Positions 101 to 27,340 of a stretch of DNA of 27,770 nucleotides are shown here, piece by piece. A program made the translations under genes and the position numbers. The notes beneath the pieces are model-generated. The model had not been told where the DNA came from and searched no databases. It worked only from the letters and a program-made list of their open reading frames with translations. Position 1 is the stretch's first letter. Every line of letters starts with the position of its first letter. The stretch is from Cytauxzoon felis (Eukaryota > Apicomplexa > Aconoidasida > Piroplasmida > Theileriidae): NCBI GenBank assembly GCA_020283715.1, contig JAIQCW010000119.1, positions 1 through 27,770 on the forward strand, given 5' to 3'.

Positions 101-2426
101 TTATGGCCAGATTTTATTTAATAGATCTAGTAATATATCTTCAATAGATGATGGTATAAATGTAGTGATATCATCATAATTACTCTTACATTTCTAAATT
201 TATATAAAAAATATAAATAAAAATAAAAATACCTTTAATAAATCATTTATTAATTTTGATGTAATTTCTAAAATTTTTATCGCTATAGGTGTATCATAAT
301 TAGATGATAATGTTCTAAGATAATTTGATAAGTAATATATATTTTGTATATCATTATATGTAATATTTATAAATTTATTTAATGAAAAAATTGTATTTAT
401 TCTATATTCTAATATATTTGATTTATAAAATTTATACATTACATCAATTAATATTTTATCATTAGTAATATTAATAATTTTAATTAATTTATTACCAATT
501 AAATCAATATGATGCCAAAATCTATATATTGTAGGAATTTTTATATTTTTTTTATTAATTAAATCATTTAAATATTGTCTTATAATTTTTAATTGTTTTA
601 TAGCATTTATTTTATTAAATGTTGTATATTCACTAAATATTTTTGATCTACATTGTGATGATGATCTACCAGGTAATAAACTTGATATTTTACTCCAATT
701 TGTACCATAAGCTGAATATAATAATTGTAATTTTATATATTCTTTATCATTAAATGGATTATCAGATAATAATGTCTATATTTTTAAAAAATTTTTTTAA
801 ATATATATTTATATAATAAATTACCTTATTAACCTCACGCCAATGTAATCTACATTGTTCTGCTGTCTTATTAGGTAAAAAATTCGATATATACTTCCAT
901 GATCTAGTATTCTCTACATTAAAATGATGACCAACCGCTTCCATCAATATCGAATCCTCCTCCATTGTCCATTTACTCGTACATTGCTTACGCAATAATA
1001 CAGATAAATACTGATATACAGTAACATCCAAATCATTACATATGTCAATCACATGCCTATATTTAAATAATATATAGAAAGTTATGTATCGATAAATAAA
1101 TAGATTAATTCAATCACCTCTTCCACTCGTCGTTCCACTTGAGGTCCAGTCCGCCTCTTCTCCACTCGCCGTGGTGGCTTCATCTATTTACTTCCCCCTC
1201 AAACTCCCGTAGATCGTTTTCGGGTTCCACTTGAGGTCCAATAACTACTCTCACTCTTCCACTCGCCGTGAAGGCTTCCTAGATTTACTTCCCCCTCAAA
1301 CTCCCATAGATCGTTTTCGGGTTCCAATTGATGTTTATTCTTATTGGATTCAATTTTATTCAATAGTATAGTGATTATATGAGATTTGTTATGATGAAAT
1401 TTACAAGTGGATAATTGTGACTAAGGGGACCGAAGAAAATTCCACGATATAAATAAACTCAGAAGAACAGAAAATTCTACCCAGAGGAACAGACCTCGAC
1501 TATTGGTCCTGCAGACAGCTTCTCCACCTGAGGTCGTCCTGCCGTCAGCTTTTTTAATTAGTTCCCCCCTCCGCTTCCCTGAGATCAGCTACGGGTAGCC
1601 CACTTGAGGTTAGATCACTAACCTCTCTACTGCCACGATCTCCGGGAGTGGCATTACTCTTTAGAGATAGGTAATTGGAAGAGCTGACGGCAGGAGAACG
1701 CGAGGTTGGAACCTCAGGTGGAACGGCGAGTGGAGAAGAGGCGGACTGGACCTCAAGTGGGGTGGATTGAACTTCGAGTGATGGCGTGGTTATAAAGATA
1801 TAAAGATACCTATTAGAATTTTGATTATTGAAGATATATTGTGCGATTTTGAGTTGTTCATGGCTATTGGTTTGATTGATGATGATACCATTATCATATG
1901 AGTTAATAAATTTGATACAACAATCAGTTGGTAATTTGAAATGATTATAATTTTTGATATTTTTATTAATAATTGTAGCGATATTATTCCAGAATATATT
2001 TAAATTAATATTGGGTTTTTTATTAATATGATGTAAATTATAATAATAATTAATATCATATAATATTTTATATTGTTCAGATATAAATTGATTATTAATA
2101 ATAATATCAACTAATATATTTAAATCATATTTTAAATAAATTTTATATAATTCTTTAGATTTTATTAATTTTAATAAATTTGTTATCCTTTTTTTATCAT
2201 TAAATGTTAATTTATATATCTCAATTACATTTGATATCATTTTTATTATCTCATTAGATACTATTAAATGTAATTTATTAATATCATCTTTACTCCATAT
2301 TAATAATTTCTTATCATATTTCTTTCTATATATAGGTAATTTAGAATTAAATGAATATAATATCAATGCATCCATATTAGAATCTGGTCTATTACCATCC
2401 TCATCTATCAATTGACTAATCTCCAT
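101..2426 (-). CDS. Myb/SANT-repeat DNA-binding protein (SNAPc/Myb-like)
   Basis: Inferred exons on the minus strand are 2426-1810, 1056-825, 775-233 and 193-101. Every junction has GT/AG and the phases match, giving about 494 aa. Three Myb-like helix-turn-helix repeats are visible. The first begins near residue 44 (IWSKDDINKL) and has a long insertion before FWNNIATI. The second is at about 235-280 (KWTMEEDSILMEAV, then SWKYISNFLPNKTAEQC). The third is at about 290-335 (NWSKISSLLPGRSSSQC). Repeats two and three carry the regularly spaced Trp and the TAEQC/SSSQC recognition-helix pattern of the family. A role in nuclear transcription is inferred; multi-repeat Myb proteins of this kind include the snRNA-gene factor SNAPC4, but orthology is not shown. 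The ATG at 2426 is preferred over the GTG 12 bases upstream. Intron 1 (1809-1057, 753 bp) holds two repeat clusters; the other introns are 39 and 49 bp. Confidence 0.75.
1118..1335. repeat. modular repeat cluster in Myb-gene intron 1 (distal arm)
   Basis: Two consecutive units, each a CCACTCGCCGTG-type box followed by TTTACTTCCCCCTCAAACTCC and a core ending ATCGTTTTCGGG. Positions 1135-1172 are the exact reverse complement of 1723-1760, so this is one arm of a foldback. Confidence 0.9.
1490..1785. repeat. modular repeat cluster in Myb-gene intron 1 (proximal arm)
   Basis: Contains forward and reverse modules: a GCCGTCAGCT box with the GAGATCAGCTACGGG core, then the reversed variant with CGATCTCCGGGAGTGG and CTCTTTAGAG, closed by AGCTGACGGC. 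Positions 1723-1760 pair perfectly with 1135-1172. It is read through in the minus ORF downstream of the exon 1 donor at 1809, so that ORF tail is intronic. Confidence 0.9.
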
Positions 2427-2449
2427 TTTTTTATTCACAAATTGTAATA

Positions 2450-2545
2450 TCTATTCCAATCGAGGTCTAATCCAACTCTTTTCGTCCTGCCGTCAGCTCT
2501 TTTATTTATTTCCCCCTCAAACTCCCATAGATCGTTCTCGGGTTC
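2450..2545. repeat. modular repeat unit
   Basis: A CGTCCTGCCGTCAGCT box, a TTTATTTCCCCCTC spacer and an ACTCCCATAGATCG core, ending in CCACTTGAGGT, where the longer companion element begins. Confidence 0.85.
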
Positions 2546-2775
2546 CACTTGAGGTTATAAATCTAATCTCAACGAGATACGTCGAAGACACAGGTTTCTA
2601 TATTTGTTCGGATATCTCAATGAATATTGAATGAAATGAAGTGAAGATGATAATATTAGATAAAACATTAATAGCCCTTTTCAATGAAGTATCGAGATGT
2701 AAATTTCATCCAATATTCATTCCACAATCTTCATGACTTCATTTCAAAATGTGAGATTTTGATTGAAAAATGGGT
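2546..2775 (-). repeat. 270-bp companion element, diverged copy
   Basis: Same order of landmarks as the copies at 8868-9142, 19878-20142 and 23478-23751: CCACTTGAGGT end, ATCTCAACGAGAT palindrome, GATATCTCAATGAATATT, TTTTCAATGAAGTAT, ATCCAATATTCATTCC. The distal CCTCAGGTGG end is eroded. Orientation is the same as the 19878 copy. Confidence 0.75.
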
Positions 2776-3343
2776 ATTGAAATAAACCAGCTGCAATGGA
2801 TGTGAATTAAGTGTTATATGTCTCAAGTAGATTTGATACCTCAGTGATGCGAATGATATCTAATCCTTTCCCGAAAATACCGATTTTTACCTCATCAATT
2901 CCTTTTGAATGGTTGAGTTCCAGAAATTCATAACTTTAAGCAAGTCATTGGAATAATTTCAAGAAATTTAAGTATAGCCAGAGGAGATGTCTACTAGTAA
3001 TCATGTTATAAAGTCCTCTAACATCCATTTATAAACATTTCAACATACAATACATGGAGTATAGAAGATGAATACAATACCACTTTTAGAAAATCCCTTA
3101 ATGTACGAATGAATTGCTCTTTATATGTATAACCTCCATCCATTACATACAAAACTTCATCTAGTCACACTAAAACTTCCATATTGACTTGAATTAATTA
3201 TCCTGAGCAAATTCTATAAAGTTTACAGAACTATTTATCCAGGGGTAGAAGTACATTTAGAATATAAAGGTACCTCATGTAGCCAAGTGGGCAGATTACA
3301 ACATCAATTAGAGTATCTAAAATTTCAGAAGAAAATTAATACA
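2776..3343. other. intergenic stretch with possible minus-strand exon remnants
   Basis: No convincing gene. Two short open stretches on the minus strand, 3158-3018 (46 codons, containing VLYVMDGGYTYKEQF) and 2929-2807 (40 codons, containing VKIGIFGKGLDIIRITE), look more protein-like than their surroundings and could be exons or remnants of one gene. They cannot be linked by a clear in-phase splice, so no CDS is called. Confidence 0.3.
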
Positions 3344-3615
3344 ATGAATTTATTATTATTACTTTTATCGCTATTTATTATAAAATGTAATTCAAACGAA
3401 GTTTGTCTATTGTAATTCTTACACATCTACACACTCTATAGGACTTTGACAACACAACCATCAACGAAGATATAAAAAATGTAAACACAAATGAAGAAAT
3501 TAAGAACTTCTTCGATCAGGTGAAGTTTAAATCAAATAATTATCGAAATTTTAGAATCAACTATTACTAAACGAAAATATCCTCTTCATATCATTTATCA
3601 CAAAGACCAACCAAT
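3344..3615 (+). CDS. possible small secreted protein (three exons, unknown)
   Basis: The ATG at 3344 opens a strongly hydrophobic Leu-rich N-terminus ending in IIKCNSNE (19 codons, 3344-3400), which looks like a signal peptide. It is followed by a GT/AG intron (3401-3441) and an acidic exon starting DFDNTTINEDIKNVNTNEE. A further intron is likely after ...FFDQ. The 3' end is uncertain: the in-phase join gives about 20 more residues, while another frame is open longer (ending KPPKEKTKLTCD). No family is recognised. The signal-peptide exon and low-complexity charged tail fit the many small exported proteins of piroplasms, which is inference only. Confidence 0.35.
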
Positions 3616-3662
3616 AAAGCCACCAAAAGAAAAAACTAAATTAACCTGCGATTGAATTTTTA

Positions 3663-3905
3663 TCTACTCCACTCGATGTCCAATCCACCTCTCTTCTACT
3701 ATAATTTGTCTTTCCACTCGGCGTGGAGCCTCTTCTAATTACCTCCCCTTTCAGCTCCCGTAGATCGCTTCCAGGTTCCACTTAAGGTTACATCTCACTA
3801 CCTCTAACTTCGCCACGATCTCTGGGAGTGGCTATACTCTTTAGAGATATGTAATTGGAAGAAGCCACCACGGCGAGTGGAACAGTAGAAGGAAGTTGAT
3901 TGGAC
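3663..3905. repeat. modular repeat cluster, intergenic
   Basis: CCACTCGGCGTGGAGCC box, AGCTCCCGTAGATCGC core, a CCACTTAAGGT end, then the reversed variant CGCCACGATCTCTGGGAGTGGC with CTCTTTAGAG and a closing GCCACCACGGCGAGTGG. The two C-type boxes make a foldback. It lies about 50 bp from the stop codon of the Arf-like gene. Confidence 0.9.
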
Positions 3906-3956
3906 CTAAATCGGATAACAAGACAGAGAAATATGCATGAATATCCGATTGACTTG

Positions 3957-4753: not shown

Positions 4754-5110
4754 TTATTTAATCTGATGACCTTATGGAGTCTCATGAGCTTTAAAAAATA
4801 AAATTTTTATTATTAATAATAAATCTATACTTTATTAAATTTACTTTTAAAATGATTATTTATTATAATGTTTAATAAATTTATAAAATTATTCTACACA
4901 TTTAAGTGTTGATGGGATTTGTATCTCTACTTCAATTATGCTTCAATTTACGCGCGCTTCGCGCGATATAACTAGAGAATGATGTATATTCCCTTGTAAT
5001 TTACTCCTGATTCATGATATAATTCCAAATTTTTTTAATTTTTCATTCACAAGTCGCGTTACAGTTTGAAATACTCACATAATCCTCTATGAATATCATT
5101 CAAATTACAA
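4754..5110. other. AT-rich intergenic region with one GC hairpin
   Basis: Divergent promoter space between the Arf-like gene (minus) and the FAINT-repeat gene (plus). The only notable element is CGCGCGCTTCGCGCG at 4951-4965, a 6-bp all-GC stem with a 3-nt loop in otherwise very AT-rich sequence. No repeat module or ORF of interest is seen. Confidence 0.6.
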
Positions 5111-5252
5111 TTGCTTTCTATAATTCTTGATCGTCTACTTGAAATCCTAATGGACACTCACATATTAATCATGGCTGACTACTGCAGCAAAAATACGTAT
5201 TTGGATCTCCAAAATCTCCTTTTACATGATTATAGTATAAATAACTTTAAGA

Positions 5253-6341
5253 ATGAATCATATTATATTGTTCTTCAACATTATCCTTTTACCAGTCATC
5301 TGCATTTGGCACCCTATGACCTTGGACATTAGTAATGTATCTGATGAATTTTACATTTCCAATGACCTTCATGATAATATAACTTATACATCTATTAGAG
5401 CTTTACCTACATATAGAATTGTAAAGGTAGTAGATGATAATTAGGTGATATGGTCTGAAGAGTATGAATTGTATCCTCTATCAAGTATTTTATTACATTA
5501 TAAAGATAATGAATTCAATTTAATGTTCATATCTACAAAATTTGGTCATGATAAGAATAGTTTTTGTTTTTGTAAAAATGAAAATAATATTTGGTATAGG
5601 ATAACCATTGAAGATTACCTTAAGAAGGAGAGAGAATTAATGTACAATTTAGTATTGGATTTGGGAAAATCTCCTAATGATTTACATCAAGAGACAATAA
5701 TTACAAATTTTGGTAATAGTAAAAGATATTATAGTCCATTTCTACCAAAAAATATTACTGAGATTAGAGAAGGTGATCAATTAATATGGTCCAATGATAG
5801 TATTGATGAATATACAAGGCTAGTTATTCTAGTAAGTAGACGTGATGAACATAAGTTACTAGAATTTATATTACGTAAAGGTAGTATGACAAAAGATATT
5901 TACTATCTTGAAAAAGAAAATGGTATATGGAAAATGATAACAGAAGATGCACATTATAAAAAGTTAATGAGGATAGAAAATGAAATGATATTAGACATAT
6001 CTGATGCTAATAGTATAAATACCTCAAAATATGATATAAATTTCGATATATCAAATGGTCTACCGACAGTAATATATATCTCCAAAAGGAAAACATATAC
6101 TACAGAAGTTAAAGATAATGATATGTTAGTATGGGAAAGTGATGGAGATCTTAAATGTGTATACGCAATAGTAAATCTCAAAGATTATAAACCAATTCTA
6201 GTACAATTACAAATTGAAAATGAAACATCACATGGAAAATTATATTTTAACAAGTCCAATGGTATATGGAATACAATAGAGCGTATTGAATTTTATAAAT
6301 TGCTACAAGAATATGATGAGGAAATCAATAGGATAAAGTAA
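5253..6341 (+). CDS. secreted FAINT-repeat protein with in-frame amber codon
   Basis: The ATG at 5253 starts a hydrophobic stretch (HIILFFNIILLPVICIW) that looks like a signal peptide, followed by three repeats of about 100 aa. Each repeat has a central turn ending in hydrophobic-hydrophobic-Trp: KVVDDN-stop-VIW, EIREGDQLIW and EVKDNDMLVW. Each then has a strand and a closing xxGIW or NIW box (NENNIWYRIT, ENGIWKMIT, SNGIWNTIE). This is the pattern of the FAINT (DUF529) domain found in many exported Theileria proteins. The reading frame is 363 codons long and broken only by TAG at 5442-5444, which falls where repeat two has Gln and repeat three has Met. A single C-to-T change from CAG would explain it. 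The gene may be a recent pseudogene, be read through, or use a 24-nt in-frame intron (5418-5441 plus the TAG). Its exported role is inferred from the family. Confidence 0.7.
5442..5444 (+). other. in-frame TAG inside the first FAINT repeat
   Basis: An amber codon at the position occupied by Gln and Met in the next two repeats. The frame is open for 63 codons before it and 298 after it. Confidence 0.9.
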
Positions 6342-6349
6342 GAAAGATA

Positions 6350-6645
6350 TTGTCCACCACTCGAGGTCCAATCCAACTCTTTTCGTCCTGCCGTCAGCTC
6401 TCCACCCGAGGTCCAATCCAACTCTCCTTCCACTAGGCGTGGAGCCTCTTCTAATTATTCATCTCTAAAGAGTATAGCCACTCCCAGAGATCGTGGCGGA
6501 TGTGAAGGTAGTTATTGGACCTCAGGTGGAACCCGTAGCTGATCTCAGGGAAGCGGAGGGAGAAGTAAATAGAAGAGCCTCCACGGCGAGTGGAAGAGTA
6601 AGTGGTGAAGAGAGTTGGATTGGACCTCAGGTGGACTGGACGACA
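6350..6645. repeat. modular repeat cluster between FAINT gene and SSB gene
   Basis: CCAATCCAACTCTTTTCG, a CCTGCCGTCAGCT box, CCACTAGGCGTGGAGCC, the CTCTAAAGAG hairpin with CCACTCCCAGAGATCGTGG, then the inverted CCCGTAGCTGATCTCAGGG core and GCCTCCACGGCGAGTGG. The outer GAGTTGGATTGGACCTC at 6611-6627 inversely matches the opening segment, so the whole is a foldback. Confidence 0.9.
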
Positions 6646-6868
6646 TTTCAATTGAGTTGCTTATGTTGAGTGAGAGAGCATTAGAAGTGATCAATAATGT
6701 AGAATATTACTTGTCTAATTGTACTATTATAAAATTCACGACTTAATTAATGTCTTTGTAATATAGATAAAACTTATATATGATTATATCTGATGATTAC
6801 TATCTCGTGGTGTATATAGGACTCTGGAATAATGATACTTTAAAGGGGATATATAATATATTTTAATA

Positions 6869-7674
6869 ATGTTATTATTTCTACTAATTTTAAATATATT
6901 ACTGGTAAATACAGTTAATATAAATTTGTCATCTAGTAGAACTGCATTTATAAATCCATGGAATCCTGGATTGTATAGAGTAAAAGGTCAATTATATGAC
7001 ACTGATGACCAATTTACTGAACCTATTAATGAAGCTCCTTTAGAATTAGATGAAAGTCAAAATTTTTTGGAAGATGATACATCAGAAACACCACGTGAAG
7101 CTGTAAGTTTATTGATGTTTATTCAATTATGAATTTTATTACTATAGTTGGATTTATCATTTAATTCTGTTACTTTATATGGTAGAATCGGTCATATTTC
7201 ACCACCATATATATTTAATTCCGGTATTAAATGCCTAAGAGTGGCATTATCAACACAAGCTGTATGTAGAATTTTAAATTGATTAAATTAACTTTCAGCG
7301 CGGTAGAGATGGTACAACAAAGACAGATTGGCATAGAATATTAATTTATGGTACTAGAAATGTCGATTATATATTTTCAAACGCTAAGTATCATTAAGTC
7401 TATCATGTTGATGTAATATTCCTTTAGAGTTGGTGATCGCGCATTCGCTTTCGGTTGTTTAAAGTATTATGTACCAAATATATCAGGTAATTGAAAATAT
7501 ATAATAATGTGTAGAGTCAATTTCAAATTTATAGCTGATAATCTATCAATGTCACGTATAAAAATCGCTGAAATCTCCATCAGCTCATATAGAAGTGGAC
7601 ACAGATTCATATTATTACAAAGACCAAAGAATGAACCACAATTAGAAGATGATCGCATTGGATATAGCTTTTAA
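6869..7674 (+). CDS. single-stranded DNA-binding protein (OB fold), probably apicoplast
   Basis: Five exons: 6869-7102, 7148-7261, 7299-7387, 7428-7486 and 7517-7674. All borders are GT/AG and the phases are consistent, giving about 217 aa. The OB-fold signature of the bacterial-type SSB family is clear: SVTLYGRIGHISPP at about 85-98, LRVALSTQ at about 108-115, then TKTDWHRILIYG, with the WHRI motif at about 127-130. The N-terminus (LLFLLILNILLVNTVNI) is a hydrophobic signal-peptide-like segment followed by a Ser- and Asn-containing, later acidic, region. In apicomplexans that bipartite layout usually routes a bacterial-type protein to the apicoplast, where SSB would coat single-stranded plastid DNA; mitochondrial targeting is less likely. 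At the last intron the acceptor at 7516 is chosen because the one two bases earlier runs into a stop. Confidence 0.8.
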
Positions 7675-7753
7675 TCTTGTTAATTATTCCATATTTGTAA
7701 ATTAGTTACCTTCCATTAACTTTTTTAAATCAAAGTTATACAGACCCAAGTGA

Positions 7754-7825
7754 AGCAGCGTAGCTCAGAGGGAGAGTGGGGGGCTCATAACCCCCAGGTC
7801 CGTGGATCGAAACCACGCGCTGCTA
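7754..7825 (+). tRNA. initiator tRNA-Met (CAT)
   Basis: A 72-nt cloverleaf. Acceptor arm AGCAGCG pairs with CGCTGCT, discriminator A. The anticodon CAT is at 7786-7788 in loop CTCATAA, closed by GGGGG/CCCCC. The T-loop region reads GGATCGAAACC rather than GGTTCGA, which is the eukaryotic initiator form, and the run of G:C pairs in the anticodon stem is also an initiator trait. No intron. It ends 54 bp before the primase ATG, so its internal promoter boxes lie close to that gene's start. Confidence 0.95.
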
Positions 7826-7879
7826 TATTTTAGTTTTGTGGTAATTCCTCTTGTTCTTTTTATATTTTTACCCACAAAA

Positions 7880-10859
7880 ATGGTAATTAAAGATGATTCT
7901 ATAGTTACAGAAGCGAATTTGAGATTTTACTACAGTATGTATAGACAATTACTACACATTCTACAATTACCACAGAAAATCTATGTCCTCTCAAGGAATT
8001 AATACGATGGATCTCATATGAAGGTATTTGACTAGTAATTTTTTAATCTGAAATCCAAATGTGTAGATTCCAATCTCCTGTCTAAACGGGAAGTGTCATT
8101 TACATACCTGAGAGAAACATCCAGTGATGTCAATGAAATATATCTCAGATGGCAGGTTCGTTCAACCCATTTTATTAAACTAAAGTACATTAGAGCTTTG
8201 ATAATTATCAGCAATTCTACGATCATATTTGCAATAATGATAATGTACCCTTTAAATTTGATATCGGTATGTTTGATTATACTATAAGGGACTAAAATAG
8301 TGTTGAATTACACTTGTGATTGTTGATGGATGTGAGGGTAAATAATATGTTGTTGAATATAATTGGTTGACGTGAAGTGTCTGGAATAGACACTATCAAA
8401 TGTGCCAAATCATAGGAAACCCCGGTAAAGCTAAGTCAAGTACTGGTGGTAGTAGTACTGATACAGTTGCTGCAACACTTAAAGGATCCAGTGCAATTGA
8501 TGAACTTTTTGATACTGATGGTGCTCAAGGTATTCGTCACTGGTCTCCTATACCGACACTTGTCATTGGAATTCTGGATGAAATTCCTGACGGCGGAGGA
8601 CCTGGTGGAGTTAATGGCGGTACTAGTGGTGAGAATTGGGAGAACAGATGGTGGTGGAATCCTATAGGTTGGGGACCATTTCTACCATATACTAACAACC
8701 CAATATATATTCACTACAATGTTACATCATTCACTAAGGTTACAAACTTGTCCTTTACTCCAACATTTCTTCGTCCTCCACCTGAAGTCTTTCCACCTCT
8801 CTTCGTCTTGCAGACAGCTTCCTCTATTTACTTCCCCCTCCGCTTCCCTGAGATCAGCTACGGGTATTACACTTGAGGTCCAATCTCTAAAATTCACTAA
8901 CTTCATTTTTACCCTCAAATTCTGAAGAAAAATCTGAATTTCTGGGGAAACTACTGATGATATCTCAATGAATATTGGATGAATTTCTAATCTCAATACT
9001 TCATTGAAAAGGAATTTGATGATTGTATTGTGTTTAATAAATCTTACTTCATTCCAATTTATATCCATTGAGTTATCTTCACTTATATGAATTCCATCAC
9101 TTTATCCTTATCTCATCGAGATTAGGAATTACCTCAGGTGGAACCTGGAAGCGATCTCTGGGAGCTGGAAGGGGATGTAAATAGAAGAGCTGTCTGCAAG
9201 ACGACATCAGGTGGAACGGCGAGTGGAATGAAGAGTTGGATTATATTTCGTGTATAATTTATATAGTTTACAATTGATATATTATAGGTGCGATATATAG
9301 TAAGAGGATAGGTTTGATGCAATTGAGTGGTGATGAATTTAAGGCGGTTGAGCGTGAATTGGTATTTGATATAGATATGGATGATTATGATGAGTTTCGT
9401 AGTTGTTGTACTGATAAGAGGATATGTAATAAATGTTGGAGATTTATAAGTATAGCTGTAGAATTGATAACATTGACATTAAAAGAAGATTTTGGTTATA
9501 AGGATATATTATGGGTATATAGTGGTAGACGTGGTATACATTGTTGGGTATGTGATGATAATGCAAGAAAATTACCATCAGATGGTAGATCATCAATAAT
9601 AGATTATTTAAATTTAATAACATATGGTGATGGTCATAATAAAAAGTTAATTTATATAATCATGATTTACATCCATTAATAATAAGAGCATTTAAAATAT
9701 GTTATAGTAATTTTTATAAATTATTAAAAGAACAAAATTTTTTTAATAATAAAATACATCTTAATACATTATTAGAATATTTTCCAGAAAAATTACAAAA
9801 TGCACGTAAAATTATATTAAATACTATTAATAATAATATTAATATTAAAGATTCTAATATATTCTTTAATCAAATATGTCAAGCATTAAATATTGATACA
9901 CCACAATCATTTAAACCCAATAATTTCGATAATACAACACAACATATACCCACACTCTTTATCGAAGCTATTATCGCATTCTCATATCCAAGACTAGATA
10001 TCAATGTCTCCAAAGATATCGCTCACCTTCTCAAATCACCCTTTTGTGTACATGCCAAAACCGGTATACTAACACTATTTTTAAAAAATTTATCGCCTAA
10101 TCGTCATCCATCTAAGTCCAATCCAACTCTTCTACACCTTGTCTTCGTCTTGCAGACAGCTCTCCATTTGAGGTCTTCCCACTCGCCGTGGTGGCCTCCT
10201 TATTTACTTCCCCTTCCAGCTCCCAGAGATCGCCTCCAGGTTCTGCATTTGAGGTTACATCATCACTACCTCCATTTCCGCCACGATCTCTGGGAGTGGC
10301 TTTACTCTTTAGAGATAGGTAATTGGAAGAGCCACCACGGCAGTGGGAAGGAGAGTTGGATTGGACCTCAGGTGGAAAGCTGTCTGCAAGACGAAGACAA
10401 GGTTGTAACCTCGGTTGGAATGACTAGTTGATGATCCATATGGTTTGTATGATAATAAATTATATAGGTAGGATATGTGTACCGATAAATTATAAAAATG
10501 TGGATTCATTTCGTCCAGAGGATGTTCCGACATTGGGTAGGTTTGATGGAATCTGTTTGGGTGATGTTGTCTATTTGTATATGTTGTTTATGTTTAAATT
10601 TGTATTATTTAACTGTATATAATTAATTTTTATAGAGACTTTGAAGGAATATTATGATACAAATGGAGGTGTGTAGATTGATAATTGAGAATTGTATCAG
10701 ATTAATTATAGGTGATGTTATGAATTCACCAATTGGACCATATTTACGTTATTTCACTGAAGAATTCTTGGTTGGTTGTTTAAATAAAGGTGGAGGTTAG
10801 TTTATTATTGTTTTAATTTAATGATTGGTTAATTTTCAGATATTGAAGATATCGATTGA
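7880..10859 (+). CDS. DNA primase small (catalytic) subunit, PRIM1-like
   Basis: Nine inferred exons: 7880-7934, 7976-8023, 8067-8155, 8194-8266, 9288-10063, 10468-10536, 10636-10668, 10712-10795 and 10840-10859. They encode about 415 aa, close to the usual 420. Landmarks in order: LRFYY and LCPLKELIRW near residues 14-31; KREVSFT at about 40-47; FKFDIGAIYS at about 84-93; the metal-binding ELVFDIDMDDYD with Asp116 and Asp118; a Cys set (128, 129, 135, 138) that should bind zinc; and WVYSGRRGIHCW at about 164-175. Next come LLKSPFCVHAKTGRICVP, whose codons span intron 5, and a short acidic C-terminus. It makes RNA primers for nuclear replication with DNA polymerase alpha. Exon 5 needs one extra base in the A run at 9641-9645 to stay in frame. 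Introns 4 (1021 bp) and 5 (404 bp) contain repeats, intron 4 also a gene-family fragment; the others are 38-99 bp. Confidence 0.88.
8400..8765 (+). pseudogene. truncated multigene-family membrane-protein fragment in primase intron 4
   Basis: An open stretch of about 120 codons starting near MCQIIGNPGKAKSS and containing IDELFDTDG, HWSPIPTLVIGILDEIP and a Trp- and Gly-rich segment (ENRWWWNPIGWGPF). The landmarks xIDxLF, WSPI and ILD recur in the minus-strand fragment at 26578-27102, and the LDIL motif with a following Trp-rich end recurs in the 12.2-14.8 kb array. All are therefore taken as one family. The stretch runs directly into a repeat cluster at about 8775, which supplies its last codons and stop. 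It sits between the splice sites of primase intron 4 on the coding strand and has no start-proximal signal peptide, so it is read as a 3' family fragment, not a working gene. Confidence 0.55.
8775..8867. repeat. modular repeat unit in primase intron 4
   Basis: CGTCTTGCAGACAGCT box, TATTTACTTCCCCCTCCG spacer, CCCTGAGATCAGCTACGGG core. It ends at the CACTTGAGGT boundary of the 270-bp companion element. Confidence 0.9.
8868..9142 (+). repeat. 270-bp companion element in primase intron 4
   Basis: Bounded by CACTTGAGGT and ACCTCAGGTGG, which form short terminal inverted repeats. Internal landmarks are shared with the 19878 (inverted) and 23478 (same orientation) copies: TCTGGGGAAACTACTGA, GATATCTCAATGAATATT, CTTCATTGAAAAGGAATTTG, a reversed CATTGAGTTATC, and the ATCTCATCGAGAT palindrome. 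The minus-strand ORF at 8727-9068 is just this element read through. Confidence 0.85.
9143..9237. repeat. modular repeat unit in primase intron 4
   Basis: CCTGGAAGCGATCTCTGGGA core, GGATGTAAATAGAAG spacer, AGCTGTCTGCAAGACG box and a GGCGAGTGG box; the inverse orientation of the unit at 8775-8867. The two units bracket the companion element. Confidence 0.9.
10105..10430. repeat. foldback repeat cluster in primase intron 5
   Basis: Arms 10136-10161 and 10378-10403 are perfect reverse complements (26 bp, containing CGTCTTGCAGACAGCT). Between them lie CCACTCGCCGTGGTGGCC, an AGCTCCCAGAGATCGCC core, CGCCACGATCTCTGGGAGTGGC and the CTCTTTAGAG hairpin. The host intron is 10064-10467. Confidence 0.92.
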
Positions 10860-10958
10860 TTGTTGTGCGGCTTGTTGATGATATGTGGTCTAATTTAATT
10901 GTAAATTATTGTTGTTGAATATTTAGTATTATGTAATTTATTAGTATATTGTATAAAT

Positions 10959-16811: not shown

Positions 16812-18185
16812 ATGGATAATAAATTAAATGGTATACCAATTGATAAAATTGAACCACAAGATCCACAAATTAAAGATAAATATCAATCATTCCGTAATAA
16901 TATTACACAATCCGCCTTAAAATCATTAAGGGAAAGGATTCCACAAAAAATTATTTATTTCGATAAAATTATTGTATGTTTAATAAATTATTTTTTTTAA
17001 TTTTAAATTTAATACTATACTTAAATTATAGGATGATAATAATACTAATGGTTGTATATTCAACTCTGATGATCTTGATCAAGAATCCTATAGGCGTGTA
17101 ACCACCCATGAATCAGATACTAAAAAACAAAAACGGAATATCAACGAGGTTAAATCATATTATAATATCATCCATAATCATACAGGTCTTTGAAGGACAT
17201 GTACCTTCACACAAACAAATCTTTAAAGAACTCGAATATATCAAAAAAGAAGCATCAGAACTTATCGAAATCGTACGTTTCAATTACAATAAAACCACAA
17301 GTGAATTTTATCCTTACCAATCAATTAATACACCCTCTATACCACCTTTCCTTCCGCTCGAGGTCCAATCCTACTCTTCATTCCACTAGCCGTTCTACTC
17401 GGCTTTTCTCTCTTCCTCTTGCAGACAGCCTTCCACCCGAGGTCCAATCCAACTCTTCATCTTCCACATCTTCTTCCACTCGGCGTGGAGCCCCTTCCAA
17501 TTACTTCCCCGTAAACGGTAAAGCCACTCCCAGAGATCGTAGCAGAAGTGTAGTGGATTAGACCTCAAGTGGAACCCGAAGCTGATCTCAGGGAAGCGAA
17601 GGGAGAAGTAAATAGAGAAAGCTGTCTGCAAGACAAGGAAAGGACCTCAGGTGGAGTGGATTGCACTTCTCATTTCTTCTTATGATGATTAATGATATTA
17701 TAGATAAGTAATATAAAATTATGGATTCAATTGAATGTACCTAGAATAGAGGATGGTAATAATTTCGGTGTTGGTATACAGGAGGAGGTGATACAGGAAT
17801 TGACTCGTGTGGAGGATACTGCTTTTAATTTGTATGATTCTATAGTCAAGTATTATATGGCTAGGTATGTTGTTTATGGATAATTATTGATATTTAGGGC
17901 TAAATTATCTACTAAAGTAATAAAATATCCAAATGTGGATGATTATGGAGAGGTTTGTTGATTGTTAAATGTTATATGATATTATAGGCGATAAGGGAGT
18001 TGGATGAGAAGGAGTGGATACACATAAAGATAACAAAGGTTGATATGCGTAATAATTATAGTATGTTATATGATTTATTATGTAAGGTATGTATATTATT
18101 GGTATATTTATAATATATGTTATAGAATTGGGAGAAGGTGGTGAAGCCTAAGAATGAGGATGGCCGTTATCGTATGACTTATTGA
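16812..18185 (+). CDS. proteasome activator PA28/REG subunit
   Basis: Seven exons: 16812-16973, 17032-17148, 17186-17272, 17704-17864, 17898-17952, 17988-18086 and 18126-18185. All joins are GT/AG and in phase, giving 246 aa, the family's usual length. The N-terminal helix is followed by a charged, Asn-rich linker (exon 2). The C-terminal domain has WIQLNVPRIEDGNNFGVGIQ, the activation-loop region of PA28, then DEKEWIHIKI, NNYSMLYDLLCKNWEK and a short basic tail. It should form a heptameric cap that opens the 20S proteasome for peptide hydrolysis without ATP. The ATG at 16812 is preferred to an in-frame ATG at 16746 because the extension is hydrophobic and unlike the family. Intron 3 (17273-17703, 431 bp) carries one repeat cluster; the others are 33-58 bp. 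It lies 85 bp after CTP synthase, same strand. Confidence 0.9.
17345..17675. repeat. foldback repeat cluster in PA28 intron 3
   Basis: Begins with CTCGAGGTCCAATCC and a CTCTTGCAGACAGCC box. It includes CCACTCGGCGTGGAGCCCC and the third hairpin variant CCGTAAACGG joined to GCCACTCCCAGAGATCGTAGC. It ends with CCCGAAGCTGATCTCAGGG, GCTGTCTGCAAGAC and ACCTCAGGTGGAG. The first and last boxes are in inverted orientation. Confidence 0.92.
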
Positions 18186-18383: not shown

Positions 18384-19661
18384 ATGTCAAAATTGAAGGT
18401 GCCGTTATGTAAATTACGTAAGCGTGAAAAGAATGTTGATATGAATGAGGATGATTTATCTGCTGGTGATATATTGGTTGATGAGTCTGATAATGAATTA
18501 AGATTGGATGAACCCGTAGCTGATCTACGTGAAGCGGAGGGGGAGGTAAAAGGAGGAGCTGTCTGCAAGACGACCTCAGGTGGAGAAGGTCATCATGGTG
18601 ACTGGGAAGGTAGAACTTTAACTTCGGGTGGAGGAGCTGTCTTTAAGTCGACATCTGGTACAAATGTTGATGATACATTGGGTGTTGTTGGATCTAGTGT
18701 AGAATTAGAATCGAATATGGATGGTATGATTACAGATGAGATGATAGAAGATGATGATGATGAAGAGATTATAAATATGGATGATGATATGAAATATAAT
18801 GAGACATTAATATCATTAATATCAAAGATGCGTACAAGAAGTATAAATATAGAGAGTATAAGAAGTATGACATTAACATTAGATAATTTAAGTAATGATT
18901 TGACAACATTTCAAACATATTGTACAAATCGTTTAAATGATTTATTAAAAGATAATAATTTATCTAGAAAATGTATAGAAATTGTAGCACCATTATGCAG
19001 TAGTAATAAATTAATAGAATGTGAATCATTAAATAATTTATTAACAACAACATCATCATCAGATGATTGTTTAATAGATAATAATGAATTAAGATTAGAA
19101 GATGATAAGAAGAAAGAAAATGATTATCCAACATTACCAACGGGTATAAAATTTATTGATGATATAAATAATTTATTAGATTTATGGAATGATAATAAAT
19201 TATTACAATTTAATTTATATAAATTATTTAATTTATCAGCATTATTAAAATTATTAGGTGATCCTACTTGTGTTGATATTATTAATAATCTTGGTGGTAA
19301 AAAATTATTATCATTACCAGATGAAAAAAAATGGATACAAATATTACAAGAATTTAATACTAATAATAATAATAATAATTTATATAAAAATATATTACCA
19401 TTTATACCAAATAAAAATTTTAAATCATATTGTAATACTAAATTAATTAATTTACCTAAAATTGATATTAATACAACACAAAATTATACATTTAAATTAT
19501 ATTGGACTTATACTAATAATTGGCTCAATAAATTCTATGGACTCTCTATCAAAACCAATTATAAATTCCTTGAACCCACCAAAAAATGGTTCGTCAATCT
19601 TGAACATCAATCACAACAACTATTACTCAAACTCTCTAAATCACTCTGCTCTACACATTAA
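18384..19661 (+). CDS. unknown 425-aa protein with repeat-derived insert in frame
   Basis: A single open frame of 425 codons, no family recognised. The N-terminus is basic (LRKREKN), then acidic. Residues about 43-93 are modular-repeat sequence read in frame ([12 protein letters not shown], then GGAVCKTTSGG). A Asp/Glu-rich block follows (IEDDDDEEIINMDDD, about 121-135). The C-terminal 290 residues are rich in Leu, Asn and Lys, look mostly helical, and include a poly-Asn run. The end (YWTYTNNWLNKFYGL and TKKWFVNLEH) is aromatic-rich. There is no signal peptide or TM segment, so a nuclear or cytosolic protein is likely. The codon use of the C-terminal half matches the housekeeping genes, arguing for a real gene. 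The insert could be a retained or unannotated intron, but it contains no stop and keeps frame. PA28 lies 198 bp upstream on the same strand. Confidence 0.65.
   Translation: MSKLKVPLCKLRKREKNVDMNEDDLSAGDILVDESDNELRLDEPVADLREAEGEVKGGAVCKTTSGGEGHHGDWEGRTLTSGGGAVFKSTSGTNVDDTLGVVGSSVELESNMDGMITDEMIEDDDDEEIINMDDDMKYNETLISLISKMRTRSINIESIRSMTLTLDNLSNDLTTFQTYCTNRLNDLLKDNNLSRKCIEIVAPLCSSNKLIECESLNNLLTTTSSSDDCLIDNNELRLEDDKKKENDYPTLPTGIKFIDDINNLLDLWNDNKLLQFNLYKLFNLSALLKLLGDPTCVDIINNLGGKKLLSLPDEKKWIQILQEFNTNNNNNNLYKNILPFIPNKNFKSYCNTKLINLPKIDINTTQNYTFKLYWTYTNNWLNKFYGLSIKTNYKFLEPTKKWFVNLEHQSQQLLLKLSKSLCSTH
18508..18662 (+). repeat. modular repeat inside the 425-codon ORF
   Basis: CCCGTAGCTGATCTACGTGA core, GGAGGTAAAAGGAGG spacer, AGCTGTCTGCAAGACG box and ACCTCAGGTGGAG, followed by a second diverged AGCTGTCTTTAAGTCG box. 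Orientation is such that the core reads [10 protein letters not shown]. Confidence 0.9.
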
Positions 19662-19724: not shown

Positions 19725-19877
19725 CACCTGAAGTTACATCACTGCCTTCTCTTTTCCACTCGCCGCTCCACCTGAGGTCATATCCTTGTCTTGCAAACAG
19801 CTTCTCTATTTACTTCCCCTTCCAGCTCCCGTAGATCGCTTCCAGGTTCCACTCGAGGTCCAGTACTACACTTCATT
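19725..19877. repeat. modular repeat units, intergenic
   Basis: CACCTGAAGT, CCACTCGCCGCTCCACCTGAGG, a GTCTTGCAAACAGCTTC box and an AGCTCCCGTAGATCGCTTCC core leading to CCACTCGAGGTCC. Confidence 0.88.
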
Positions 19878-20142
19878 CCACTTGAGGTTAATTACTTATC
19901 TCGGCGAGATATGTCGAAGGTAGTGGTTTTCACATAGATGGAGATATCTCAATGAATATAAATTGGAATGAAGGAAGGATGAGTAAATCCAATACAATCA
20001 TCAAGGTCCTCTTCAATGAAGTATTGAGATTAGAAATTCATCCAATATTCATTCCACAATATTCAGTAGTTTCCCTAGAAATTCAGATTTTCCTTCAAAT
20101 TTTGGATGTAAAAATGAAGTTGGTGAAATTAGACCTCAGGTG
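19878..20142 (-). repeat. 270-bp companion element, inverted copy
   Basis: Bounded by CCACTTGAGGT and ACCTCAGGTG. Carries the ATCTCGGCGAGAT palindrome, GATATCTCAATGAATAT, CTTCAATGAAGTATTGAG, ATCCAATATTCATTCC and a reversed TAGTTTCCCTAGAAAT. The plus ORF at 19952-20143 is this element read through and resembles the minus ORF in the 8868 copy, as expected for one element in two orientations. Confidence 0.88.
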
Positions 20143-20425
20143 AAGAGTAGCTGGATTGTAACCGCAGGTGGACTACCCGTAGCTGATCTCAGGGAAGCGA
20201 AGGGAGAGGTAGATAAGAGAGCCTCCACGGCGAGTGGAAGAGGTGGAGTTAGTGATGTAACCTCAGGTGGAAAACCCGAGAACGATCTACGGGAGTTTGA
20301 GGGGGAAGTAAATAGAGGAAGCTGACGGCAGGATGGACCTCAAGTAGAGAAGGCACCACGCCTAGTGGAAAGACCTCAGGTGGAGCTGAAGGTAGTGATG
20401 TAACCTCAGGTGGAATGGGGGTTAT
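20143..20425. repeat. modular repeat units, intergenic
   Basis: Three consecutive cores: CCCGTAGCTGATCTCAGGG, CCCGAGAACGATCTACGGG and a box-only tail. They are interleaved with GCCTCCACGGCGAGTGG, AGCTGACGGCAGGATGG, CACCACGCCTAGTGG and three ACCTCAGGTGGA boundaries. Confidence 0.9.
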
Positions 20426-20554
20426 GGGGATATTAAACCTCACAATAATAATTTACCCCATAGATCTCCCATAATATTGTTAACTGTAGGGATAAAATTA
20501 TGGTGTAATAGTGATTGGTTCAAATGAATTTCATCATTATCAAATAAACTAGCT

Positions 20555-23340: not shown

Positions 23341-23344
23341 TACC

Positions 23345-23477
23345 TGTGGTTACAACATCTGTTCCACTCGCCTATACCTGAGGTCTATCCTGCCGTCAGC
23401 TTCTCCACTCGAGGTCGTCTTGCAGACAGCTCTTCTATTCACTTCCCCCTTCGCTTCCCCGAGATCAGCTACGGGTT
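23345..23477. repeat. modular repeat units, intergenic
   Basis: A TCCTGCCGTCAGCTTC box, CCACTCGAGGT, a CGTCTTGCAGACAGCTC box, a TTCACTTCCCCC spacer and a CCCCGAGATCAGCTACGGG core. Confidence 0.9.
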
Positions 23478-23751
23478 CCACTTGAGGTCCAATCACTGTC
23501 TTCAACTAGTTCATTTTTACTCCCAAAATTTGAAAGAATTTCATCATTTCTGGGGAAACTACTGAAGATATCATAATGAATATTAAATGAATTTCTGATG
23601 TCAATACCTCATTGAAAAGGAATTTGATGATTGTATTTAATATACTCATCCTCACTTCATTCTCATTTATATTCATTGAGATATCCTTCCAAACATGAAT
23701 TCCGTCACTTTAGACGTATCTCTTCGAAATAAGGTTTATAACCTCAGGTGG
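23478..23751 (+). repeat. 270-bp companion element, intergenic copy
   Basis: Complete, from CCACTTGAGGTCC to ACCTCAGGTGG. Contains TCTGGGGAAACTACTGA, CCTCATTGAAAAGGAATTTG, TTCATTGAGATATC and ATCTCTTCGAAAT in the same order as 8868-9142. Confidence 0.9.
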
Positions 23752-23905
23752 AACCCGAGAACGATCTCAGGGAGTTTGAGGGGGAAGTAAATAGAAGAGC
23801 TCTCTGCAGGAGAATGCGAGGATGTAACCTCAAGTGGAGAGCTGTCTGCAAGACGAAGAGAGTTGGATTGGACCTCAGATGGAGCGGCATGACGAGTATG
23901 ATTGA
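23752..23905. repeat. modular repeat units, intergenic
   Basis: CCCGAGAACGATCTCAGGG core with the AAC/GTT-closed loop, GGGGGAAGTAAATAGAAG spacer, an AGCTCTCTGCAGGAG box, ACCTCAAGTGG, then AGCTGTCTGCAAGACG and GAGTTGGATTGGACCTC. Confidence 0.9.
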
Positions 23906-23948
23906 GTATATATGGAATTGGTATGAATGGATGATATTTAGATAGAAA

Positions 23949-24656: not shown

Positions 24657-25580
24657 ATTATATAACGTTCTCTTAATAAATTCCTCTTCTTCTCAATATC
24701 TAATTTCAATTTTCTATCCGTCTTCTCTATTATATTATCAATCTTAAAATTATTCTGCTGAGATCTATATGTACATACTACAGGTATATTCGATACTACA
24801 CGCTCAAATACAGAAAATATCGGCAACTCATTAAATAAAAATGGACTCAATTGTGGTAAACGTACTATAGGATAACCTATAAATATATAATATATATCAT
24901 TAAAACATCTCCACCTGAGGTTACAATCCACCTTTCGTTCCACTTGAGGTCCAATCCAACTCCTCTTCGTCTTGCAGACAGCTCTTCTAATTACATATCT
25001 CTAAAGAGTAGAGCCACTCCCGGAGATCGTGGCGGAGGAGGTAGTGATTCGAGTGTAGTTAATACTGGACCTCAAGTGGAAGTGAAATACCTGGAAGCGA
25101 TCTATGGGAGCTGGAAGGGGAAGTAATTAGAAGAGCTGACGGCAGGATGGACCTCAGGTGCAGAGCTCCATGCAATGGGAATGAGAGGTGGATTGTAACC
25201 TCGAGTGGAATGTGTAGTAGAGGTTAGAAGATGTGTTAGGTTGTAATATATTATATTTATATATTTGTATAATCATACCTGCTGGAATTCTGGCTACGTG
25301 ATGATGTATTTTGCCTTTTCCTTGTCCCATTTTAACCCCGTCTGGTTTTTTGGTGACGGGGTAAGTGGCATACGCGTCTAATATGAATTCACAATGTTTT
25401 TTTTAATATTCTCTTCAAAGCTAGACGTAATTTTTCAATTGATTCAGATTTAATACGTCTAGGTGTTAATGTTACTAAACATTTGCCTAGAAATATTTTA
25501 GGTTCTGTTAATGGTACTATTCTTCCTTTAGGTGCTTTATGTTGTATTGGCAATGGTAATTTATAAAAAGTAGGAGGCAT
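24653..25580 (-). CDS. mitochondrial ribosomal protein uL16 (L16-like)
   Basis: Two exons: 25580-25279 and 24876-24653, about 174 aa if one base of an A run is discounted. Exon 1 has GKCLVTLTPRRIKSESIEKL, like the LxPGxITARQIEAxRRA block of bacterial L16. Exon 1 also has YPVTKKPDGVKMGQGKGK and HHHVARIPAG, which carry the L16 signature PVTKKPxxVRMGxGKG. Between these blocks the frame changes at an 8-A run on the coding strand (25397-25404 on the plus strand); one A fewer keeps the conserved frame. Exon 2 (GYPIVRLPQLSPF to ERVVSNIPVVCTYRS) completes the domain and adds about 34 charged residues. A role in the large mitoribosomal subunit is inferred from the family. The intron (25278-24877, 402 bp) holds one foldback repeat. 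Confidence 0.75.
24905..25215. repeat. foldback repeat cluster in uL16m intron
   Basis: Arms 24911-24933 and 25186-25208 are inverted complements with 21 of 23 positions matching. The interior carries CGTCTTGCAGACAGCTC, CTCTAAAGAG with CCACTCCCGGAGATCGTGGC, CCTGGAAGCGATCTATGGGA, and AGCTGACGGCAGGATGG. Confidence 0.92.
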
Positions 25581-25746
25581 AATATATATTTATATACATA
25601 AAGAGTATATTTATACATTAATGTGTATAAAATTAGTAAGTTCACAAATAAATATAATTGATATTTTATAAAAATATATACTTCAATGAAATTATTATAA
25701 TTTATTTTACATTTTGTAATATGTGTTGTATAAAGTATGAAAAACT

Positions 25747-25819
25747 TAACGACGACGGGACTCGAACCCGCAACCTTCGGTTCCGTAGACCGACGCCATA
25801 TCCATTAGGCCACGCCGTC
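25747..25819 (-). tRNA. tRNA-Arg (ACG)
   Basis: A 73-nt cloverleaf on the minus strand. Acceptor GACGGCG pairs with CGTCGTT (two G-T pairs), D arm GCC/GGC, anticodon loop CTACGGA giving ACG, T arm GCGGG TTCGAGT CCCGT. No intron. Apart from four positions (anticodon base 34 and acceptor-arm bases) it is identical to the tRNA at 26113-26185. Confidence 0.95.
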
Positions 25820-26112
25820 TCTCAGGGTGGAAAAAATATTTAATTTATATAGTGATGAAATGTATAAAATAATACGCGATGTAAGAATAATGATAAATTT
25901 TTAAATTTTATGAATCTTAAATTAATTTGTGGTGTTTTTTATCTTGAAATTTAATTCTCTAAATTATGTAATAATATTAATATTCCAAATTTGAATAGAA
26001 TCTTGATATATTTATTAATGTACTAAATGAATATCATCAATTAATAATTTATACACCACTATAGTATTAGTACTAACATCATCTTAGGTTAAAAATTCTG
26101 CTCCGAAAATGG

Positions 26113-26185
26113 AGCGGCGTGGCCTAATGGATATGGCGTCGGTCTTCGGAACCGAAGGTTGCGGGTTCGAGTCCCGTCGTCGCTA
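26113..26185 (+). tRNA. tRNA-Arg (TCG)
   Basis: A 73-nt cloverleaf. Acceptor AGCGGCG pairs with CGTCGCT, discriminator A; D arm GCC/GGC; anticodon loop CTTCGGA giving TCG; T arm GCGGG TTCGAGT CCCGT. No intron. It lies about 290 bp from, and divergent to, the near-identical tRNA-Arg(ACG). Confidence 0.95.
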
Positions 26186-26344
26186 TGTGAAAGAGGATCA
26201 TTTATTAAGTGAAAATAAGCTTTATATTATCATAAATAATTATTATTTATACATTTAATTTTATAAATGTGAACAGTAACCACAAGAATCCACCAAAAGA
26301 TTCATATCCATTTCCATCTCGTCTATACAGTTTGTCTTCTACTA

Positions 26345-26560
26345 CACATTCCACCTGAGGTCCAATCACTATCATCTCCAACATCTCCTCGACCTGCCGT
26401 CAGCTCTTCCCTTTATCTCCCCCTCCGCTTCCCTGAGATCAGCTGCGGGTTCCACTTGAGGTCATGTACTAACTTCTGCCACGATCTCCGGGAGTGTCAT
26501 TACCGTTTACGGGGAAATAAATAGAAGAGGCTCCACGCCTAGTGGAACGGTGGTAAAAGA
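26345..26560. repeat. modular repeat cluster, intergenic
   Basis: CCACCTGAGGTCC, CCTGCCGTCAGCTC, CCCTGAGATCAGCTGCGGG, CCACTTGAGGT, GCCACGATCTCCGGGAGTG joined to the hairpin variant CCGTTTACGG, and GGCTCCACGCCTAGTGG. Confidence 0.9.
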
Positions 26561-26577
26561 ATTTGGTTGGAGAAGAC

Positions 26578-27102
26578 CTATGGTATAAAAGCCAACCAGG
26601 AAGTGTTCCATAAGTAATAGTTTTTTTGAGCGCCACTACTATTACCGCCCTTAAACCAATGTTTTCCACTTGGTCCACATTTAGGGGCAGCTTTACCAGT
26701 TGCGTCATCAATTATATCCAATATGGCTGATGGATAATAAGGATGATGGATAGGAGACCATTCCGCAGCATGTCCAGTATCATCAGGAGTAGCAGTAGCA
26801 GTTGTTCTAAGATTTTTAGGATTTTTATAAAACAGTTTGTCAATGCCTTTATTCCCATCTTCATTTTTACGGGCAGGAAAAGCACCAAAATCTATGGCCT
26901 CATTATCATTAGTCCCAGTAATTGTTTCCGTATCAATTATATCAAAGATTATATCAGTACCCGTAATAAAAATGGAAATTATGTCCTTCCATTCACGACC
27001 AATCCTATTATTAACAAAACCGGCATAATCAGCATTTGTAGCATTAGTATTAGGATCAGAAGCTTTTTTTGCTGGTGAAAACCATGTTTTTAGCCCTACC
27101 AT
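26578..27102 (-). pseudogene. multigene-family membrane-protein fragment (C-terminal part)
   Basis: A 174-codon frame from VGLKTWFSPAKKAS to YLWNTSWLAFIP. It shares landmarks with the fragment in primase intron 4 (IDKLF, WSPI, ILDIIDD) and the Trp-rich end with array copy 2 (WHGTHLAF against WNTSWLAF). No TM pair or signal peptide precedes it: the two-TM module seen in the array is missing on its 5' side, where repeats begin. It is most simply a 3' fragment of the same family, but a short gene or the last exon of a larger one is possible. It is flanked by repeat clusters at 26345-26560 and 27135-27340. Confidence 0.55.
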
Positions 27103-27134
27103 CTAGATATTACAATATACCCGTACTGTAGCCT

Positions 27135-27340
27135 ACGCATATCTTCCCGTTCCACCGTTTGCCATGAGACAGCTGCTCCACTGATGTCCAATCCAACTTT
27201 CATCGTCTTGCAGATAGCTCTTCTCCAACATTCGTCGTCCTGCAGACAGCTCTTCTATTTACTTCCCCTTCCAGCTCCCGTAGATCGCTTCCAGGTATTC
27301 CACTTCCACTCGAGGATACACTTACTTCACCCGAAGTCTG
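27135..27340. repeat. modular repeat cluster, intergenic
   Basis: GTCCAATCCAACTTTC, CGTCTTGCAGATAGCTC, CGTCCTGCAGACAGCTC, TATTTACTTCCCCTTCC, AGCTCCCGTAGATCGCTTCC and CCACTCGAGG. CGTCCTGCAGACAGCT is a hybrid of the two common box types. Confidence 0.88.

Follow-up and report, generated by a model that had tools for sequence, protein, structure and literature searches.

Covarying hairpin stems around a conserved loop in an abundant dispersed element of Cytauxzoon felis

The element and its setting in contig C69

The stretch analysed here, referred to as the window, is an entire contig of the piroplasm Cytauxzoon felis (JAIQCW010000119.1, C69 in our numbering; 27,770 nt), one of the 181 contigs of an assembly totalling 8,623,106 bases. 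It carries many copies of a short hairpin core, in which the loop GATCTNNGGGA is flanked by complementary arms. The window holds 33 exact matches to the loop pattern, where 0.23 would be expected and 100 shuffles gave at most 2; genome-wide there are 7,145 (3,565 + 3,580 by strand), and the pattern written backwards gave 14 (8 + 6). Further counts come from a sample of 227,770 nt, made up of the window and the first 10 kb of each of contigs C1-C20 (L009-L028); its 153 repeat blocks account for 15.9% of the sequence. By their inner 3-nt arms the cores of the sample fall into classes A (CAC/GTG, 82 copies), B (GCT/AGC, 80), C (AGC/GCT, 35) and the rarer D (AAC/GTT, 9), E (GAT/ATC, 3) and F (AGT/ACT, 2), and four copies of a seventh class, G (GAC/GTC), have the loop GATCCATGGGA instead. 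Genome-wide the counts are A 2,648, B 2,417, C 1,055, D 158, E 218 and F 89, together 6,585 of the 7,145 copies.

Seven introns of the window hold repeat blocks. All have splice sites that look canonical (GT-AG), and across six of them Pfam domains continue once the exons are joined; the intron at 1057-1809 (-) is without Pfam support. This intron contains a block with two tandem D cores (1118-1326; 1205-1215 and 1302-1312, both -) and an A/B element (1462-1780; B 1576-1586 (-), A 1637-1647 (+)). The primase intron (10064-10467) contains an element at 10114-10439 with a GGC/GCT core at 10221-10231 (-) and an A core at 10285-10295 (+); upstream of it the primase open frame shifts once, at ~9640-9660, through a small intron, an assembly error or a real break. 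Three introns belong to the CTP synthase gene. The first (11832-14928; 3.1 kb) has an A/B element with an extra B core (11882-12209; B 11953-11963 (-), A 12014-12024 (+), B 12188-12198 (-)) and a single B core (block 14798-14885; 14806-14816 (+)). It also has several kb of sense-strand open frames (12119-14928), alike among themselves and to an open reading frame (ORF) at 8400; lying between the converging B cores at 12188 (-) and 14806 (+), they resemble a piece of a gene family transported between two ends of the repeat. The second (15290-15688) is occupied by a block at 15277-15639 with a mispaired GCT/GCT core at 15536-15546 (+), and the third (15947-16334) by an A/B element (15972-16303; A 16118-16128 (-), B 16182-16192 (+)). 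The PA28 intron (17273-17703) contains an element at 17357-17663, with an A-type core that has a G-T pair (17528-17538 (-)) and a B core (17584-17594 (+)), and the uL16-like intron (24877-25278 (-)) an A/C element (24906-25212; A 25018-25028 (-), C 25099-25109 (+)).

The remaining blocks begin with one cut by the contig start (9-90; B 69-79 (-)) and one at 2460-2557 (D 2523-2533 (-)), which is followed at 2600-2733 by another copy of the AT-rich sequence enclosed in the long elements described below. There is an A/C element at 3663-3907 (C 3756-3766 (-), A 3817-3827 (+)), and A/B elements lie at 6357-6635 (A 6482-6492 (-), B 6541-6551 (+)) and 26347-26547 (B 26430-26440 (-), A 26483-26493 (+)); a last block at 27147-27315 has a C core (27276-27286 (-)). 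The element at 6357-6635 is downstream of an ORF (5445-6341) with a profile match to the FAINT/DUF529 domain. According to PMC3505731, this domain was known first from T. annulata and T. parva, occurs in T. equi as well and is not reported for Babesia bovis or Plasmodium falciparum; its presence points to a Theileria-like piroplasm. Three long elements, at 8768-9242 (B 8845-8855 (-), C 9153-9163 (+)), 19725-20518 (C 19827-19837 (-), B 20185-20195 (+) and an extra D core at 20284-20294 (+)) and 23358-23883 (B 23456-23466 (-), D 23763-23773 (+)), enclose an AT-rich interior of ~240 nt (8890-9131, 19889-20130 and 23501-23734). The interior is conserved between the B-like ends and holds inverted repeats around ATCTCAATGAATAT. 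A one-armed block at 18510-18692, whose core loop has one mismatch (GATCTACGTGA), lies in frame within a 425-aa ORF (18384-19661), which looks like a copy that has turned into coding sequence. At 25744-26188 lie two facing tRNA-Arg genes (ACG on -, TCG on +), whose 74-nt arms are 96% complementary.

In six of the seven introns the splice sites lie 25-84 nt from the block on each side; the exception is 15290-15688, where the block overlaps the inferred 5' site and 49 nt are left outside it. The intron length outside the outermost blocks, with the intervening sequence removed too, is 56-124 nt in six of seven. This remainder is like Theileria introns, for which PMC2612703 gives mean lengths of 75.6 nt (T. 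parva) and 63.8 nt (T. annulata) in an orthologous set. When the flanks of 125 merged blocks were scored for coding potential, 89 could be called on both sides, 75 of them with the same strand, 10 convergent and 4 divergent; 12 others had short flanks and 24 had no call on one or both sides. The same-strand excess suggests that many copies lie inside genes, introns and tandem genes not being separable block by block.

Neighbouring cores mostly converge (minus then plus), and 85 of the 87 convergent neighbours are <460 nt apart. Among the 46 convergent pairs with a gap of <80 nt, 43 combine A with B (26), C (14) or F (3), one combines E with B and two include an arm outside the classes; none is single-class. 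At 80-400 nt, 21 of 36 pairs combine A with another class and three share a class (BB 2, AA 1), and these wider pairs include the elements with a B-like hairpin at each end and an AT-rich interior. Tandem neighbours within 400 nt are identical in class in 9 of 18 cases. In most cases, two closely spaced cores mark the opposite, converging ends of one dispersed element, which joins an A hairpin (GCCAC/GTGGC) to a B-like hairpin. The core is only one part of this element, which has two ends, several hairpins and no recognised coding content. The outer cassettes on the two sides combine at random (same in 18 of 74, 17.7 expected).

A rule by which the left and right stems must differ was suggested by the low number of convergent pairs that share a class (3 of 95, 28.3 expected; 3 of 82 within 400 nt). 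It was dropped: the outer cassettes show no such avoidance, the deficit is weak in pairs that lack A (2 of 18, 5.6 expected), and same-class convergent pairs ~308 nt apart occur among the sites listed (C5:12424-/12732+ and C21:38454-/38762+). We read the rarity of same-class pairs as the identity of the A/B element. Because both hairpins carry the same loop, the loop of one is complementary to that of its partner at 9 of 11 positions. No compensation is seen at the NN positions (same in 3 of 95 pairs, 20.6 expected), and kissing of the loops is possible but unsupported.

Paired changes in the stems

Since the exact search presupposes the loop, which is thereby invariant in those counts, a flank-only search was run for the non-A copies, in which arms and loop were left free and only the 11-nt loop length was fixed. 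No mismatch at the nine fixed loop positions was seen in 126 of 138 matches; ten had one mismatch, one had four and one had seven, and the two N positions were variable. When loops of 3-12 nt were surveyed in the repeat blocks, the 11-nt loop was the only one flagged as occurring with several stems, and the four cases flagged at length 10 in the slid control were the same hairpin with one loop base counted outside. Conservation of the loop does not depend on the design of the search. A first-pass annotation of this DNA had described an invariant loop of 11 nt in all arm classes, and both the length and the constancy outside the two N positions are borne out.

Perfectly complementary 3-nt arms were found in 211 of the 226 exact copies of the sample, and at most two copies paired when the 3' triplet was slid by -4 to +7 nt. 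Among the 137 near-consensus matches of the flank-only search (≤4 loop mismatches), 127 had perfect arms. Copy by copy in the window, the arms form three perfect base pairs in 30 of 33 cores, include one G-T pair in two (10221 and 17528) and are mispaired in one (15536, GCT/GCT). The claim that every core variant has complementary arms is thus slightly overstated; the GCTAC/GTGGC copy at 17521-17541 (loop 17528) does keep its stem through one G-T pair, as annotated. Genome-wide, GCT/GCT occurs 25 times, against ~370 expected by arithmetic from the class counts if arms combined freely. The four arm classes named at first all exist, within a set of at least seven. Two of the example positions (14803-14819 and 25096-25112) are correct as given, the one for GCCAC begins at 12009 rather than 12010, and 23763 is the start of a loop whose arm is at 23760-23762.

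To these counts was added a covariation analysis of 76 distinct non-A sequences, out of 156 copies, with the A copies excluded. Pairing reached 95.8% of cells, versus 77.6% with the 3' letters redealt, and the covariation score was 0.620, versus 0.272 in shuffled and 0.030-0.147 in slid alignments; neither value was equalled in any of 500 shuffles. All three inner pairs vary on both sides, in agreement with the original proposal that three base-pair positions change in both partners.

The outer stem and further short hairpins of the element covary too. The outer stem is CCC/GGG in 99, CCT/AGG in 33 and mixed in 5 of the 137 flank-only non-A matches. The motif xxx-WCCAC-yyy in repeat blocks is paired in 88 of 106 cases (GCC/GGC 57, GGC/GCC 31), and xxx-TTTA-yyy beside A in 76 of 93 (CTC/GAG 57, CCG/CGG 14, CCC/GGG 5). 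In the 171 matches to AGCT-xxxx-GCA-yyyy, the arms are GTCT/AGAC (72), CCAT/ATGG (6) or CTCT/AGAG (4), and the other 89 lack perfect pairing; among the unpaired matches listed, 58 represent a different GACG cassette and 14 are GTCT/GGAC, which includes a single T-G pair. Covariation of several stem classes around the conserved loop is real and strong, and it is stronger than first described.

Origin of the paired changes and the folded molecule

A tree was computed from 97 columns covering the A hairpin and spacer of 68 elements; 11 of its 65 inner branches have good support. On it the stem class changes 21 times, versus 24.9 with shuffled labels (8 of 200 as low), which leaves it nearly unlinked from the neighbouring sequence and looks like an exchange of whole hairpins. 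Close copies also differ by entire stems: those at L020:8016 and L023:8011 by AAAC/GTTT versus AAGT/ACTT, and those at L009:2601-2985 and 3382-3777 by GGC/GCC versus GCC/GGC. The stems have thus been replaced whole and repeatedly, and cassette exchange, template switching or stepwise compensation could each leave such a record. Comparison of independent pairs on supported branches shows the 3' arm tracking the 5' arm in 4.9 of 5, with no case to the contrary (p 0.0625, the pairs being too few for p < 0.05).

These observations bear on the argument, made in the first-pass annotation, that chance drift would not produce the paired changes. Pairing does go far beyond that of shuffled or slid arms; what was overlooked is that mutation and conversion could generate it without any function, if one arm is repaired from the other by template switching and whole hairpin cassettes are swapped by ectopic conversion. 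Template switching can create and maintain hairpins and multibase compensatory changes (PMC8794818), and the near-independence of stem class and flanks, the random combination of outer cassettes, the whole-stem differences between close copies and 8 chimera-like copies joined in the loop out of 248 (our own reading) all agree with such a process. Taken alone, however, it leaves unexplained why the loop, the internal loop and the outer stem are more constant than the inner stem, and it predicts no gene-strand bias; loop breakpoints are also rare although the loop is shared homology. In the absence of selection, none of the three routes explains the conserved loop and the rarity of loop-joined copies. 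We consider a purely mutational origin unlikely, though it deserves to be taken seriously.

Which molecule folds was approached by computing the probability of the inner stem. For 81 distinct non-A hairpins as RNA, the mean was 0.84 on the GATCT strand and 0.43 on the complement; as DNA, it was 0.53 and 0.29, and in RNA chimeras with the 3' half from another class it was 0.07. The 83 A hairpins fold on both strands, as RNA (0.87 / 0.81) and as DNA (0.80 / 0.80). The orientation of the elements relative to genes was then compared with these values. Of 67 A/non-A pairs, 43 have coding flanks on the same strand, and in 30 of these the A core precedes its partner on the sense strand (p 0.014); the figure is 22 of 31 with stricter coding flanks (p 0.029), 34 of 46 with merged blocks, and 2 of 4 and 7 of 10 with a coding flank only on the left or only on the right. 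Relative to the assembly strand there was no bias (30 of 67). By core, non-A is in sense in 65 of 94 and A is antisense in 46 of 64, and eight lone cores are evenly split. A first in sense is the orientation in which both hairpins are predicted to fold as RNA. Among the functions originally suggested for the hairpin (a protein-binding site, a processing site or a transposition end), predicted folding and orientation favour an RNA fold in sense transcripts. We tentatively propose, as a reading that may well be correct, that selection acts on folded RNA in the sense transcripts of a mobile or amplifying element.

Several results weigh against this proposal. Two of the five covariation measures stay at shuffle level (pairs changed on both sides, 4 vs 3.9; further pair types, 11 vs 10.9), and there is no consistent excess of G-U over A-C (9 vs 10 in the five pairs of A, 10 vs 5 in the three pairs of non-A). 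The orientation test was conceived only after the data had been seen, and the cores of a pair are not independent of each other. In B-first copies a polypyrimidine tract precedes an AG on the sense strand (our own reading), and avoidance of mis-splicing, which itself acts on RNA, could yield the same bias. Seven single hairpins were no more stable than their shuffles (z -1.30 to +0.88); the covarying inner stem is present in 7 of 7 minimum-energy folds as RNA and in 3 of 4 as DNA. For a whole element the minimum-energy structure is, in RNA as in DNA, a long foldback of the left arm with the right arm and not two hairpins (z -3.4 for RNA and -3.5 for DNA; -14 for a long element). Blocks also lie between genes, and one lies inside an open frame.

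If selection on sense-strand RNA is the cause, the core would be a folded-RNA motif on a very abundant dispersed element, and the feature kept would be the fold in sense transcripts. Some factor would read three features together (the loop, the outer CCY/RGG stem and the purine internal loop, GNA/GGA or GA/GA), and the inner stem would need only to pair, whatever its sequence. The whole foldback might pack the insertion out of the pre-mRNA, such that an intron of ~400 nt would behave as the ordinary short intron that it entered.

Relation to known repeats and significance

Its dispersal suggests that the element is mobile. In 27 blocks with recognisable ends, whose true ends are uncertain, there was no excess of target-site duplications (matches of 3-5 nt occurred as in permuted pairs, and one block had an 8-nt match), and no empty site was found in the 227,770-nt sample. 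No Y1 (RAYT) transposase was detected in the genome by a search whose control matched in 5 of 14 genomes, introns being able to hide a split gene. Genome searches with Helitron_like_N and DDE_Tnp_1_7 gave no match and were uninformative, no control having matched either. RVT_1 gave only two matches, both in one frame of 1,010 aa (G000:C56:73693-74436), which is possibly telomerase. The 21-mer of the A hairpin had four single matches in a prokaryote collection, taken as chance, and none in viral contigs. According to PMC2612703, no transposable elements had been found in Theileria. Among the titles and abstract openings listed by searches on Theileria, piroplasms and Cytauxzoon, mostly in the open-access literature, none describes such an element, which is no proof of its being unpublished.

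Bacterial REPINs, moved by RAYT (Y1/HUH) transposases, suggest that the hairpins could mark the termini of a mobile element and be recognised by their structure in single-stranded DNA. REPINs are described in PMC3116915 as inverted doublets that show compensatory changes and can fold either into a long hairpin or into a clover. The C. felis element likewise consists of an inverted pair of short structured motifs converging around a short spacer, in thousands of dispersed copies, and its long foldback versus two local hairpins parallels the REPIN long hairpin versus clover. It differs in that it resides in a eukaryotic genome with no Y1 transposase found, has ends of different class and carries extra covarying cassettes; in addition, the folding of the non-A hairpins favours RNA over DNA, and the gene-strand bias would not be expected. 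A REPIN-like mechanism is rather improbable on this evidence.

The blocks could also be introners, insertions that create new introns. The element shares with the introners of Amoebophrya, also an alveolate parasite, its presence in introns (it fills seven in the window) and its foldable inverted repeats; PMC7789003 reports inverted repeats predicted to form hairpins. In six of the seven introns, however, non-repeat sequence separates splice site and block and the element does not supply the splice sites (15290-15688 is again the exception), all seven look like canonical GT-AG introns, and blocks also occur between genes. Since the splice sites lie outside the blocks, insertion into existing introns fits better, and we regard an introner origin as very unlikely. 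That the core is a protein-coding repeat (peptide D-L-R/W-E) with incidental pairing is hardly credible: the variable loop bases do fit CTN-NGG codons, and several open frames traverse blocks, one block lying within the 425-aa ORF, but the complementarity spans codon boundaries in 211 of 226 copies, introns hold blocks, and A copies with a CTGACGG cassette soon meet a stop in the DLWE frame (our own reading).

Miniature inverted-repeat transposable elements (MITEs) and foldback elements are short, non-coding and of high copy number, with inverted-repeat arms, and lie in introns and between genes. The C. felis element has the same habit and differs from them by the absence of a target-site duplication excess and of a fixed terminal sequence, by inner stems that covary around a fixed loop and by freely combined cassettes. 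Structured RNA motifs as a class combine a fixed loop, a purine internal loop and paired but variable stems. In its sequence the element shares these features, but it has no Rfam match above cut-off: the window returned only tRNAs at the curated cut-offs, and a relaxed scan of 6300-12300 gave three sub-threshold hits, taken as chance. It resembles REPINs in layout, foldback elements and MITEs in habit and structured RNA in constraint, and we claim membership in none.

Our broadest interpretation is that about one sixth of a compact apicomplexan genome consists of an undescribed kind of RNA-structured, mobile element, in which two paired hairpins share one loop and have interchangeable stems (the loops could kiss). 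It would live in introns, fold itself out of the pre-mRNA and swap hairpin cassettes between copies. We put this forward as a doubtful but real possibility, because the covariation is strong and the step to RNA depends on a post hoc bias. If it is true, a recognition code could be read from >7,000 exact cores, with the loop, the internal loop and the outer stem fixed and the inner stem any of several complementary triplets. The element would then offer, within one genome, a large natural experiment on what gives rise to paired changes (selection, or else template switching and conversion), and the introns of C. felis would tolerate insertions several times their own length.

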